The notes below the pieces were generated by a model. The model worked only from the letters and a program-made list of their open reading frames with translations, did not search any database and was not told where the DNA came from. A program made the position numbers and the translations under genes. This document shows positions 20,641-62,761 of a stretch of 64,000 nucleotides of DNA, piece by piece. This stretch comes from Adineta ricciae (taxonomy: Eukaryota > Rotifera > Eurotatoria > Adinetida > Adinetidae): assembly GCA_905250025.1 (NCBI GenBank), contig CAJNOJ010000244.1, forward strand, positions 62,001-126,000, written 5' to 3'. How positions within the stretch are numbered: position 1 is the stretch's first letter; each line of letters begins with the position of its first letter.

Positions 20641-22342
20641 TGTTGTCGTTCTAGTGGTATACTTTTGGAAAAAGCGATTGAATATCCGACAAAGACACGG
20701 ATCTTATAGACTGCCAGTCGAATGCAATCATATGGTCAAATTCACAGACTGATAATATCCTGGGTTATTCATGATGATATTATTGTGATATTATTGACGT
20801 AAGAAGTGATATTAATTTTTGTCAAAATATGTTGTTGTTTCGAAAACAGTGGTGGGAGGAGACGCGAAATCATTCCTTAACTGGTTAGACTTTGACCCCC
20901 GAATAAGAAAAATCCTTCCAAATGATGACAAAGTTACCATCTATACGCTAAGAATCTTAACTGAAAGGGTTTAGAAACGTTCTCAATTATCGTAATGGAA
21001 CGATGCATTGTTATTAAATAAAGCCGATTTAATTCATGGAATTGCCATTGAAACCATTTACGTAAACATTTCATCAACAAAGTATCGTTTTTCCTTCTTC
21101 TGATGATCACCCGCTAGTTTTATTCTGTTCACATCGATTCATAAATTATTCACGTAACTCTCCGAACTTCAATTCTCCACAGACATGTAATATATTTATT
21201 TGAGAAAATAAGATATCTCGATAAGATAATAATTTAATAGAAAANAATTATTTATCATTGAGTGCAACAGATAATTAGTGAGACTTATGCTTGTCTTTTT
21301 TACTTTTGTATGTGTGTGCGTGTGTATGCATGTCTATGTGCTCGTGTTTCTCTATGACGATATCGTACATATAACGACGATGACTTATATTTTGTGTGGC
21401 ACCACATGCCAAAGAATCAGTAGTAGAAATGTATAGGGAGAATCGCAACAGCAGTAGTAGTAAAATAACAGAAAAGTCATATCGAAAAGTATTGACGATA
21501 GAAATAAGGGAAAAGAGAAAGCTGACAGAGGCGAGGGGGGGGGGGAGAAGGAGGGGAGGAGTTAGGCGAAAGAGAAAAAGAAAGAAATCAACTACTTGCA
21601 TTGTACGTAATCAATCGTGCTATGGCACTATTGCAACTGGTAGTAGTGTCGAGAGAAATTTTCTCCTTCATTTCTCTCCTGCTCGTTTGATCATCCATAT
21701 AATCACGATCACCCCAACAGTGTCTTGAACAATAATAATAAATAATAACAATAAATGAGGTGTACATCAGGAATGAGCAAAGTGAAAAGTAAGAGAAACA
21801 CTATCACTATCAAAGTCACGCCTTGCCTGAAACAAAAGAAGGAAAGTTAGGTGAATATCATAACAAGGCCATCTGTCCAAACTGATAATCACCTAAACAA
21901 TTAGGTTTTTCTTTTTTTTTATCCTCTTCTCTCTCTCTCTCTCTCTCTCGTTCGCTCTCTGTATGTATATAATCAGATTAGAGTAGGAACAGAAAAACTC
22001 GAGAAGTGACTGACCTTTTTCTTTATTCTCTGACATAGGCGCAAAGGCGGTGTCTTTGAATATGTCAAATTGTTTTTCTGACAATAGAGTAACAGAAGAC
22101 AGTTAATTATATATATATGTATATATGACAAACCTACTTTTCTTACAAAACAACGTCTTTTAGATCAATCAATTTCTCCTTTATTCGTTTATTTTTCGTT
22201 TAGATTAAACAGAAGAAATCTTGAAAGAATGAAATCGCTATTCAATCAAATATTTTTAGTAATCAACAATCGAATGCTTTCGTCTACTCTGAAGTTCGAC
22301 TTAACGTGAATATTTGCCTATCTATAGTGAATTAAAGCCAAG
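20641..22342. other. 1.7-kb gap between divergent antistasin-like and neurexin genes
   Basis: It should hold both promoters. Simple sequence includes an 11-base G run at 21535-21545 inside a purine-rich tract, a TG-rich patch near 21306-21327, and a CT array at 21929-21949. One undetermined base (N) is at 21245. The open frames at 21275-21728 are low-complexity products of these tracts. Confidence 0.45.
21929..21949. repeat. (CT)n microsatellite
   Basis: About ten uninterrupted CT units follow a T-rich stretch. Confidence 0.9.
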
Positions 22343-55318: not shown

Positions 55319-56578
55319 CTTGGAACTTGAAAAAAAGAATAATGGAATTAATTGCTTACTCTATTTTTATTATATAGGATCATTCGTAAACTGATACGAA
55401 TGGTTTAGTAGAGAAGCAGGCAGCTGCTCAGGGTGTGGTAGGATTAGCGTAAAAAAGGCGAACTTGCGAGAAGGTATCATTAATATAACATCGATTTTGC
55501 TTGGAGATTAAATTTTATTCTAAATAATATTTTTATCACCGAAAAGAATCACAATAATTGTTTTCCATCGAAAGCACTTTTTTGTTGAGCTGCACCATTT
55601 GATAGTGCTTACGTATCCAAATTTTCTTTGTTATATCCGATGACATTCGATATAATGAAAAAAAAACAAAATTTAGAAGCAAAACAGTATGGCGTTGTTA
55701 TCAAATCGTCAGTGAATAATACATGTACCAAAAAAAGTGCGTTGTCATTGTTTATTATTATTGATTTTTTTTTCAAGAAATCGTGCTACAAATCATTGAG
55801 AAAACCATTCCTTCGGTGTTCGATAGGAAACGGTATATTTTCCAATCACGATTCAATCAAATTCTTATTAACAAAACACAAGAAAGATTAGATTTTAATG
55901 TAGTTTGCAACGATTCTATGAACAGTTGTTCTTTTTTTTTGTTTTCAAACAAGAAAAATTCTTATTCTACTCATTTTGATTAATTCATCAGACACATCTA
56001 TTTGATAAAATTTTCCAAGTGTCTGTCATATCCCTGATGAATAAGACGAGCCGTTCTTTCCATTGTTATTATATACATCCAATAGCAAATGAGAGAATTG
56101 CTTTTCTCATCATGTCATCTCTATCAATCAGCAGTATAATACACATTTGAATCAAAAGGCCGATAATACGATTGTAACATCATCATCAGTCGTTTTCCAC
56201 TCAATCAAGTTTCTCGAATGACATACGAGCAAATCGATTCTTTGCTCTTTTATTCATTTCAAAAACGGATATACTTGAAAAACTAGTTCCACGTTCATCA
56301 ACCGACCAGCTCTACTTATTGAAAACACAAATCAACGAGTTATCCATTATAAACACGGCATCAGGTGTATATGGGAGACATACTTGTATATGGCGTGTCT
56401 CAGCTGGATGTCTCTCTCGTTTTTTTCATTCCCGGAGTGTGTGTATACCGTTAATGAAATTGAATATACGAAAGCAAATTGACACTGATTCGATTGCGTG
56501 TATTGATACTAGTTTTAGTCATCATCGGAAGTGATAACTATAGCGAACGCACAGCGAGAAATCATCTCCTGTCCAGCT
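55319..56578. other. Intergenic region between divergent amylase and FoxQ2
   Basis: About 1.3 kb, probably both promoters. Open frames at 55628-55983 and 56319-56534 are AT-rich and lack domains. Confidence 0.4.
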
Positions 56579-57830
56579 ATGGCAGTTCCGTTGATGACAC
56601 CATCTCCACCTGCCTATCGATATGAAAATATTGTCGCCATCACTCAGNGTGCTGATATTTCACTTCCTCAACCATCACCATCACTAGTTCATCATCCAAA
56701 TTACCCAATGTTACTTGCTGCTCAACAACAATTATATGATTACGCTGTCCGTCTTCGATTCGGAGGAGGACCTCCTCCAACACCACTACCACCCGGATCA
56801 GCAACATTAGCTGTCGGACCTGGTCCACATCATCCATCATTCAGTGATCCACATTCCCTCTATGCGTTTCATCAACGACATGATCCTCGACTACGTTGTC
56901 TTCTACGTGAAGAACCCAAGCCGTCCTATTCCTATATTGGATTGATTGCCATGGCCATTCTAAGTTCACCCGAACGAAAACTCGTTCTGTCGGATATTTA
57001 TCAATGGATACTAGATCATTATGCTTATTTTCGTGCACGAGGTCCCGGATGGCGAAATTCAATTCGACACAATCTTTCTTTGAATGACTGTTTTATTAAA
57101 GCTGGTCGTTCAGCAAATGGCAAAGGCCACTATTGGAGTATCCATCCAGCTAATCTAGCTGATTTCAGTAGTGGAGATTTTCGACGACGGCGAGCACAAA
57201 GACGTGTCCGGAAGAGTATGGGCTTATCCGTACCTGAGGACGAAGAAGACGACGACGAAACCTTACCGACGAACGGAGCTGACCATCATTTCGAACAGTA
57301 AGTGGATTTGAGCACAAGATATTTCTTTTTCAATTAGACCATATTTTTTCTCTTCTAGTCCCCTAACGAAATATCCATCTGATGAATTACGTCCGAATGT
57401 AGCTGATCTCTCACTGTCTTCATCATCATCTTCTTCAACAACAACGACAGCAAACAGTACAGGTGTAACACCAAACTTATTACAACGATATTTTGATGAC
57501 ATGCAACGTGTTGTTGCCTCTCGACTAGAACAGCAACAACAGCAGCATAATCAACAACATCATAATTCACAATTATTCTTTCCATCACCGCCACAATCAC
57601 TAAACACAAGTCGAAATCCAAATATAACAACGACAAATACATCAACACCACTTCGGCCACTATCAACTACACAAAATCAACGAAAACGTTGCTTCGATGT
57701 CGATAGTCTTCTAGCACCTGAACAACCATGTTTAATCAAACGACATAAATCGAGTTTCGATGGTAATGAAGATATTTGTAGTCCAGATTCCAAGTCAGAC
57801 GGTTCAACCGATACAGACATATCAGCATGA
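56579..57830 (+). CDS. FoxQ2: Forkhead box transcription factor, FoxQ2 type
   Basis: Two exons (56579-57297, 57359-57830) give 396 aa. The forkhead domain (about residues 110-207) reads [60 protein letters not shown] and [18 protein letters not shown], ending in [14 protein letters not shown]. The [16 protein letters not shown] and [12 protein letters not shown] sequences are typical of FoxQ2. An acidic stretch and Ser/Thr and Gln runs follow. Near the C-terminus [12 protein letters not shown] resembles an EH1 motif that binds Groucho. FoxQ2 proteins pattern the anterior neuroectoderm/apical organ in many animals. One undetermined base (56647) leaves one residue unknown near position 23. The start is the ATG at 56579; the open frame extends further upstream without a usable ATG. 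Confidence 0.9.
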
Positions 57831-59250: not shown

Positions 59251-62200
59251 TTATTTATCTGCGGATGGGCCATACCGACGGGTAAGTCGAGGTATTGGCG
59301 ATTCATAAGGACTAAGACGACGAGTGAAATAATCATTATCATTCGTTTGACTTGGGTGTATTTTGATACTTTGAAAAAGAGCGTTTTCATTTAATAATTG
59401 TTCTTGTCGTTTATTCCGTGTTGTATTCAATGGAACAGTCGAAGGATCAGTATTCCGCGCGTAACGTCGTTCGACTTCGTCAGGATCGAGATTAGCAAAT
59501 TGATTTTGATAATTATAATTCAATGGTGATGGCGAATGAAAATCATTTTGAGCATTACGATTACTACCTGACAGTGGTAGATTTGCTACTTGAGGAAATT
59601 GAACTTCTTCTCGAATGGGATCTGGAACATAGTAAACATTTCTCTCTTCGTCATAACGTGCTTTTTCAATAATCTTATCGAGATTGCTGTAATTACAATT
59701 ACGTTCCATAACATTACTCATCTTTTCAAGCATTGTACGAAAGAGAAGCAGTTGCTTTTCTTGAGCACGCATTATATTGAAATAATTCTGACGATCGCTT
59801 TCGAATTCGTGTAGTAAGTCTTCATTATCCTGTTTTAAGCGTTTATTTTCCAAACGTAATTGTTCGAGTTGTTTAGATGTGAAGTGCAACTAAAATGAAA
59901 AGGATGTATTTGTTCTTTATGAAGCAAGAACAAACCTCTTCTTGAGCATTGTCAAAAACGCGCATCATAACATCATCATCATTGCTTTCGATTGCTTTCG
60001 TCAATAACTTGCGTTGTTCTTGTTTTTCACGCATTTCATTCAATCTCTTCTTTCGTTTCTTTTTCTGTTCTTCATTGTTAATTTCTTCTCCACCGATCAG
60101 TTTATGTTCTAATTCGTATAACCGTTTCAGTTTTTCTTCGGAATTCATTGCTCTTGGTGTACGATCATTTTCATCACTGGATTGTTTACCAGATCTACCT
60201 TTCTTCTTCTCCTTACTCGGAGCAGTCTGTTTGTTCAAAGCGTTGATATCACCATCATATTGCTCTTTCAAATCATTGTATCTGTGTTGCAATTCTTGAT
60301 TAGTTAAACGTTCTTCTTCGCATTGTCGACGCAATTCTGCTGCTTCACGTTCGAATTCCGTGCGCAATCTTTCCTTTTCTTTTTCGATTTCTTCATCGTA
60401 TTTGATCTGCGAACCCTTAACATATGAAGCATATTTGCATAAAAATGATTCGACATTCCTTTTTACTCATTCTATCCTGTAACGAACACATTTACTTTTT
60501 CACAGCTAGGATAAGATAAGAGTACTGCAAATGGCTTCCAAAACGAAGAAAGTCTACGTTTCGTACAATCAATTGCATGATATCATCCAACAAACGGTTC
60601 AACGAACGAAACTTTGTGAAAAATTTTCCCCAACACTTCTCATTGCTATAAGTGCAGGTGGTTTTCTACCGGCAAGGATCCTACGAAATATTCTCAAAGG
60701 AGAGCTCGGTGGTAAATCATTACCTATTCAAACTATTGGCTTATGTTTGTATGAAAGCGAATCAAATGAAATCTACAAAACTCAATGGATTGCAACCGAT
60801 CTCGTTAATGATCCGTTAGCAATATCATTCAGTGGTCAACGGATTCTTATTATTGATGAAGTCGATGAAACGCGCACAACGTTAAGCTATGCTGTAAGTG
60901 AACTTGAAAAAGATATTGCTAAACAGCGAGCAACATCAAGTCAAGAATGGATTGAACCCAAATTAGGCATTTTTGTTGTACATAACAAATCTGTTCCTAA
61001 ACGTGGGAAACTACCTGACGAGATTATGACGGATTCTTATTTTTGTGGTGAAAATGTCGGTGGAGAATGGATTGTTTATCCTTGGGATGCTTTAGATATC
61101 GATGAACATACACGTTTGGCAACGAGTGAAATGAAAGCAAGCGAACTTACTCTTCCATCGGATGAAAACGATTGAGTTTCACGATTCATATTTCCAGCAT
61201 CGAGAAGTTCTTGTTTAAGACGATTGATTTCTTCTTGTAAGATTCTCATTTGTGCATCGCGTGGATCTTCATTTATATGTGGCTTATTCTTAATATTTTT
61301 CGCTCGATTCGCATCTAAACAGATATATTATGCAATGATTTGTAGAATGTTTTTCGAATATAATCATACATCGTAATGTCGAAAGTGTTTCTTCATAATT
61401 ATCGTGTGCTGGACTTATAGCCGCAATCTTTCGAGAAAGGAAAAGGATACGAATGCGAACAATGAATAAACAGAAGAATAGTTGTTTACCATCAATGTTT
61501 TAGTATTGCCACCAAGTGAATCTTGTAACAGACGTGTTAGTTTGGAATCTCGATAAGGTATGTGCTTTGAGCGACCATCAACCAAGGCAGATATGACATT
61601 ACCCAAGGCACTCAGTGATAAATTAATTCGAGTCGCTTCACGAAGACGATCACCTTCCGCATCTGTATAGGGCACAGAAAAGGATTTTATTGAGATGAGA
61701 AATATTCTGTCTACATACGTGTTTTCGATTGCCGTTCGCTGCCGGCTAAATCGACTAGATTCAATTTCCCTGCACGAATATGTTCTTTTCCGTCCAATTC
61801 ACTTTGCGTGCACATTTCCGTCATAATAGTAAAGATCGAATGGGATCGAGATGAATCCTTATTCATCAAGGTAGCACCAGTCGCGCGATTCTTGTTACCT
61901 TTATCCATCAAACGTTCGCAATCCTTGACACTTATACATTGATGCCATGTTAAATTCGGAACAAAAACACCTTTATCTACATGTTCCTGCAAACATTAAC
62001 AACAATCAAATTTCGATTTTTTCCTCTCGTTTCAGGGCTTACTTTGAGTTCAAGTACCGCTTTCGCATCTTTACTCAAAAGATCACGAATACTCTCATTG
62101 TAGATTTCGAGATATGATGCGCGAATAAGATATTTGGTACCCGCTGTTACCGATGACGCTTCGAATATATGCTAGAAATTACTCGCAGATAGAACATTGT

Positions 62201-62761
62201 TCGATTGAAGTTTAAATATTCTCACTTCAAACGATCGAGGTATAACACCACGTTGTAAAGGTCCGGTTGTATTCATTCCTTGCATAGTGAATGATTTCCC
62301 GCATCTAAATAGGAAAACTTGAGGTTAAAATACATTTTGAAAACGAAGTATATCAGTACCCTGTTTGACCATAAGCAAATACAGTTGCATTGTATCCTTC
62401 CAATACCTAACATAAATCATAACCTTCCTGTCTTTAGGGTGTGATGGTTTTCATCTGTCAACATACACTTTCTACTAGTGGAAAGACGGAATCTGTGTAT
62501 AAAGTTTCTGTATTTGAGTTCTCAGGGTACACTGCATCAAATGTGAATTGTTTGGGTGGTTCATTTCGTTCGTCGATTGTTTCCAAGAGAACTTGATTTA
62601 ATTGCGTATTCATAGTAATAACAGTCTACGAAAGGCAGATAAATGACGATAAACTATCGACAGATTTGTCTTACTCGACATGCAAGATCTAGCTCACGTT
62701 GGTTCATCGGTCGACAACGAACTATAACACGGACTGCTTCACCTGTATTTGATGCCGCCAT
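59251..62761 (-). CDS. KIF17: Homodimeric kinesin-2 (KIF17/OSM-3 type)
   Basis: Eleven exons (62761-62675, 62625-62467, 62406-62360, 62304-62226, 62171-62043, 61986-61719, 61662-61490, 61427-61370, 61314-61151, 60415-59936, 59889-59251) give 760 aa. The motor (residues 1 to ~340) has [11 protein letters not shown]-loop GQTGCGKSFTM, switch [12 protein letters not shown], switch [15 protein letters not shown] and the [20 protein letters not shown] helix. The neck reads [20 protein letters not shown], diagnostic of kinesin-2. A coiled coil follows, then [19 protein letters not shown] near the C-terminus, a KIF17-like element. This motor moves intraflagellar transport trains toward ciliary tips. 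One intron (61150-60416, 735 bp) is far longer than the rest and contains a complete gene on the other strand. Confidence 0.92.
60531..61175 (+). CDS. Xanthine phosphoribosyltransferase-like protein, fungal Xpt1 type, nested in a KIF17 intron
   Basis: A single uninterrupted frame of 214 aa. It resembles yeast Xpt1, which makes XMP from xanthine and PRPP in purine salvage. Matching blocks are [43 protein letters not shown], the PRPP loop [40 protein letters not shown] and [18 protein letters not shown]. The Asp-Glu-x-Asp-x-Thr-x-x-Thr PRPP loop is complete, so activity is plausible. Metazoan HPRT is not similar beyond this loop. The gene has no intron and runs opposite to the kinesin around it. 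Its last 25 nt overlap kinesin exon 9, and the C-terminal ~16 residues extend past where yeast Xpt1 ends. Horizontal acquisition is inferred. Confidence 0.88.

Follow-up and report, generated by a model that had tools for sequence, protein, structure and literature searches.

An intact Hpt1-like phosphoribosyltransferase gene nested antisense in a kinesin intron of the rotifer Adineta ricciae: a probable horizontal acquisition beside an empty homeologous intron

A stretch of 64,000 nucleotides from the bdelloid rotifer Adineta ricciae (assembly GCA_905250025.1, contig CAJNOJ010000244.1, positions 62,001 to 126,000 of the forward strand; "the window" below) carries an intact gene resembling yeast Hpt1, a 6-oxopurine phosphoribosyltransferase, on the strand opposite to a KIF17-type kinesin and within one of its introns. 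We consider it probable (roughly 0.7) that the bdelloid acquired this gene horizontally, that the gene settled in antisense orientation beside the splice donor of a short intron that one of two homeologous kinesins already possessed, and that the host supplied the last nine residues of its product. No animals are better known than bdelloids for taking up foreign genes frequently; to our knowledge, however, an integration site is seldom found together with its unfilled counterpart. The main features are as follows.

60531..61175, plus strand: intron-free open reading frame (ORF) for a yeast Hpt1-type 6-oxopurine phosphoribosyltransferase, 214 amino acids, ATG to TGA
60840..60896, plus strand: region of the phosphoribosyl pyrophosphate (PRPP)-binding motif, residues 104-122, aligned with yeast NVLIVDEVDDTRTTLHYAL
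61146..61175, plus strand: 3' end of the ORF, comprising its final nine codons (residues 206-214) and TGA, on the strand opposite the kinesin donor at 61145-61150 and exon at 61151-61175
59251..62761, minus strand: OSM-3/KIF17-type kinesin, the host gene (Pfam Kinesin; first ATG placed by eye)
60416..61150, minus strand: kinesin intron holding the ORF, 735 bp, with donor GTAAGT at 61150-61145 and an acceptor AAG ending at 60416

The nested gene and its family

A preliminary description of this DNA had proposed a complete, intronless gene lying antisense within, and slightly beyond, a 735-bp kinesin intron much longer than its neighbors of about 40-75 bp. This anatomy is borne out: the ORF is a single frame without interruption, its overlap with the kinesin exon is 25 bp (61151-61175), and the other kinesin introns measure 45-63 bp (nine gaps between 11 exon blocks), lengths accurate to a few bases only because the block edges were placed by hand and mostly lie off exact GT..AG.

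The best match of the ORF protein in the PDB is yeast Hpt1 (HGPRT; 2xbu, E 4.8e-40, residues 5-212), and the similarity is far above chance level. The score is 140 bits against yeast and 91 against a Neisseria protein, and the predicted model has the same fold as yeast Hpt1, nearer to it than to the Neisseria protein. The PDB matches with E values up to 1, nine in number, include no animal HPRT, in agreement with the earlier view that the protein is yeast-like and outside the animal HPRT family. The name given at that time, Xpt1 or xanthine phosphoribosyltransferase, did not survive: the nearest solved relative is Hpt1, no chain called Xpt1 is among the PDB matches, and the score against the bacterial xanthine phosphoribosyltransferase family NF006613 (NCBIfam) is 28 bits, well below the curated cut-off of 138. 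The PRPP-binding motif is present opposite yeast VLIVDEVDDTRTTL; residues 104-122 presumably bind PRPP.

Two loops set the protein and yeast Hpt1 apart from prokaryotic relatives. The loop R49-Y74 has 26 residues in the ORF protein and 25 in yeast, versus 19 in 48 of 49 prokaryotic loci and 24 in the other; the loop E124-G146 has 23 and 28 residues, versus 11 in all the prokaryotic loci but one, which has 12. These 49 loci were kept from 60, leaving out L074 (broken frame) and the distant L075-L084; among them L102 equals L037 in protein ends, length and score (both from genome G001), and L097 and L099 are nearly alike. The ORF product is thus predicted to be a eukaryote-type (yeast Hpt1-like) 6-oxopurine phosphoribosyltransferase, an assignment that the sequence comparisons support.

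The same genome has a locus, on contig C90, that matches human HPRT (1bzy, E 1.1e-30). Judged from sequence, the rotifer carries two quite different HPRT families. Four loci match the phosphoribosyltransferase domain (L020, L021, L024 and L025, on C90/C26 and C38/C115, apparently two allelic pairs), of which the C90 locus is the one tested. At two further loci, L026 and L029, perhaps homeologs, a PRPP-synthetase-like gene adjoins what by eye appears to be a thymidine-phosphorylase-like gene.

Allelic copies and an empty homeologous intron

In the 130 Mb of the genome (1033 contigs) the ORF occurs in two copies, on the window contig (C244) and on C116, with 96% identity in DNA and 94% in protein and with the kinesin and a forkhead gene colinear around both. 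The two contigs differ by about 5-6% along about 7 kb, and the frame is intact in each. The alleles of the ORF differ at 25 of 642 coding bases, with 12 codons changed, and are under constraint (nonsynonymous divergence, dN, 0.026; synonymous divergence, dS, 0.089). A search of the genome for a third copy turned up nothing beyond noise; a weak match on C127 (E 0.13, with two stops) was discounted as such.

The preliminary description had suggested looking for an empty kinesin intron in related rotifers, and one is present in the same genome. Contig C129 has a second, diverged kinesin (dS 1.76 over one motor exon) with a forkhead gene in matching order, and is the homeologous region. Its intron at the matching position and phase is 126 bp long and holds no relative of the ORF. 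Over that exon the kinesin alleles differ by dS 0.165, and the values of 0.165 and 1.76 are nearer to those given for A. ricciae (0.14 for alleles, 1.27 for homeologs) than to those for A. vaga (0.05 and 0.61) in the accessible part of PMC5916493. Homology between the empty intron and the ORF or its flank was not detected, since shuffled sequences scored as high in 59 of 200 cases for the whole intron, 87 of 200 for the flank and 28 of 200 for the ORF part; because of this, the exact insertion junctions cannot be placed. The simplest history is a gain after the homeologs diverged and before the alleles did.

The 3' end of the gene

The length of the exon end, from a CAATC motif to the donor, is identical in the homeolog and the ORF-bearing kinesin. 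When the homeologous exon end is read antisense, it has the same frame and the same TGA (LTLSLVRYD* versus LTLPSDEND* in the ORF). The presence of this frame and stop in a homeolog that has no ORF argues that the donor and exon sequence beneath the end of the ORF belonged to the kinesin beforehand. Residues 207-214 are a low-confidence tail in the predicted model (predicted local distance difference test, pLDDT, below 50), as expected if they are an added, non-conserved end.

On these grounds one might envisage a foreign enzyme gene that arrived without a 3' end of its own and was made whole by host sequence, through an antisense stop already in place. The bases concerned would then do double duty, for the kinesin as splice site and exon and for the enzyme as codons, and the two genes would have been tied together as an overlapping antisense pair since before the allele split. 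We regard this account as tentative, with slightly less than an even chance of being right.

A probable course of events can be outlined. A eukaryote-type (yeast Hpt1-like) phosphoribosyltransferase gene would have been taken up by the bdelloid and would have entered the short kinesin intron near its donor, in antisense orientation; the ORF-bearing intron retains the donor consensus and an AG end. The inserted frame would extend past the donor, enter the kinesin exon and end at the antisense TGA already present there. With PRPP as the source of ribose-5-phosphate, the enzyme probably acts on hypoxanthine and/or guanine, possibly also on xanthine, in parallel with the animal-type HPRT. Its transcript probably receives a cap from the bdelloid spliced leader, an arrangement that would release the ORF from dependence on kinesin transcription.

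Origin of the gene and alternative explanations

The ORF joins yeast with support of 95/91 in a 30-row tree and 96/97 in a 22-row tree, which include 27 and 19, respectively, of the 60 prokaryotic and viral loci; in both, yeast is the sole other eukaryote and the bdelloid the sole animal. Of the fungal origin proposed earlier, the grouping with yeast holds, but a fungal donor does not follow from trees of this composition, in which bacterial placements are also tolerated (below). Searches for a closer source found none in phages. In a plasmid collection two records match, both from Neisseria, at about 33%; in viral contigs the same two loci (L083 and L084) matched at 23% in two scans; and a structure search of viral proteins found a Pithovirus LCPAC304 protein (BFVD A0A481ZAU6; 29%, template-modeling score 0.82 by target) that is not nearer than yeast.

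Several results weigh against horizontal acquisition from a eukaryotic donor. In approximately unbiased (AU) tests, neither a grouping of the bdelloid ORF with spirochaetes (p 0.158) nor one with Neisseriaceae (p 0.156) was rejected. The GC content of the ORF (38.2%) is close to that of the window (35.8%), so that composition gives no foreign sign. The score against Pfam PF00156 (Pribosyltran), 25.4 bits, falls marginally below the gathering cut-off of 26.3. No exact copy of the bdelloid spliced leader was found in the genome. Finally, the gene could possibly have been lost from the homeolog instead of gained here, as the homeologous intron has no detectable homology to either flank or gene.

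Some of these points are what one would expect under vertical descent, in which an old eukaryotic Hpt1-type gene was lost in most animals, moved into the intron, or had been there all along, before tetraploidy and was later lost from the homeolog. The relative is eukaryotic, the composition is host-like, and the branches of the 30-row tree are deep (0.94 changes per column for the bdelloid, 0.85 for yeast); trees in which yeast and the bdelloid are the sole eukaryotes leave room for wide loss, and the empty intron, at 126 bp, is longer than the other kinesin introns. However, an intron of that size with consensus ends and no detectable gene remnant is more simply an unfilled site, and an animal-type HPRT is already in the genome. 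We judge vertical descent unlikely, though it deserves serious consideration. A bacterial donor, spirochaete or Neisseriaceae-like, would fit the AU results and the lack of introns. It also fits the abundance of bacterial relatives: 46 loci were found in prokaryote genomes, 38 of them in Neisseriaceae or spirochaetes, where the best segment is 29-38% identical, and eight more distant; of 392 genomes sampled from the phylum to which one spirochaete belongs, 63 match at E <= 1e-15. Yeast is nonetheless nearer in score, in fold and in both loops, and the support of 95-96 for the yeast grouping also speaks against this source, which seems to us quite improbable. Least credible is an assembly artefact or a contaminant joined into the kinesin, in favor of which nothing was found and which would have had to produce the identical arrangement, with an intact frame, on two contigs that differ as allelic contigs do; we give it hardly any weight.

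Possible expression signals

Two sequences near the ORF could serve its expression.

60491..60505, plus strand: acceptor-like TTTACTTTTTCACAG, 25 bases upstream of the ATG and identical in both alleles; possible spliced-leader acceptor
61465..61470, plus strand: AATAAA, a possible poly(A) signal, present in both alleles about 290 bp past the stop

By itself TTTACTTTTTCACAG proves nothing, because sites resembling it occur at a density of about 2.4 per kb on each strand of the window. The bdelloid spliced leader occurs in the genome at 41 places with one mismatch (the first base) and at three more with two, and the reversed leader, used as a control, at none; this accords with the bdelloid host named in the preliminary description. 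Many copies form clustered head-to-head pairs about 150 bp apart, a few at 371-467 bp (contigs C6, C8, C43, C77, C79, C99 and C146). According to the available portion of PMC1925144, a 23-nt leader is common to bdelloids of two families, and none was found in the monogonont Brachionus.

The host kinesin and neighboring features

The best solved relative of the host kinesin is OSM-3 (E 2.1e-86). The acceptor of the ORF-bearing intron, AAG/GGTTCGCA, was selected through comparison with the allele. The first choice, a CAG at 60409-60407 (giving a 744-bp intron), was dropped: it is not a common acceptor, because the allele on C116 carries CAA there. This position lies just inside the kinesin exon, and the CAG may be an allele-specific acceptor that would make the exon nine bases shorter.

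56519..57827, plus strand: open segments of the forkhead gene beside the kinesin (ends approximate), in the same order in the homeologous C129 region

Single N bases occur at window positions 21245 and 56648, the latter inside a forkhead open segment.

Significance and comparison with known systems

A filled allelic pair and an empty homeolog stand within one genome. If the proposed history is correct, the time of gain is bracketed, an incoming frame can survive through a host stop codon, and the animal has two different enzyme families for probably one salvage step. In the openly licensed literature, no title or abstract opening among the matches listed names this gene or foreign genes nested in introns. 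The accessible texts of three papers, supplements being outside the scope for the last two, were equally silent: nicotinate phosphoribosyltransferase is the sole phosphoribosyltransferase in PMC12220480 (one occurrence), "phosphoribosyl" has no occurrence in PMC3499245, and "phosphoribosyl", "purine" and "intron" have none in PMC4632278.

Among known enzymes, yeast Hpt1 (PDB 2xbu, 2jky, 2jkz) shares with the ORF protein 44-46% identity, a similar length, a common fold, the DEVDxTRTT motif and both longer loops. It differs in that the rotifer gene has an animal host, is nested in an intron and has a C-terminal tail antisense over a host exon, and the substrate assignment of the rotifer enzyme is a prediction. 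The Neisseria gonorrhoeae phosphoribosyltransferase 5vog has 39% identity, and both it and its spirochaete and Neisseriaceae kin have shorter loops. Animal HPRT1 likely catalyzes the same overall reaction but belongs to a different sequence branch.

As far as the accessible parts of the two papers show, foreign transcripts cover 28 of 58 purine-metabolism Enzyme Commission numbers in A. ricciae (PMC3499245), and 6.2-9.1% of genes in four bdelloids pass a clan test for foreignness (PMC5916493). If transferred, the ORF is one more bdelloid foreign gene; like those described in these sources it encodes a non-animal-type enzyme, is intron-free and is tied to animal genes, being inside the kinesin and beside the forkhead gene on two contigs. 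It departs from them in lying within an intron and overlapping its edge, with the corresponding homeologous site empty in that same genome; this setting is the notable part.
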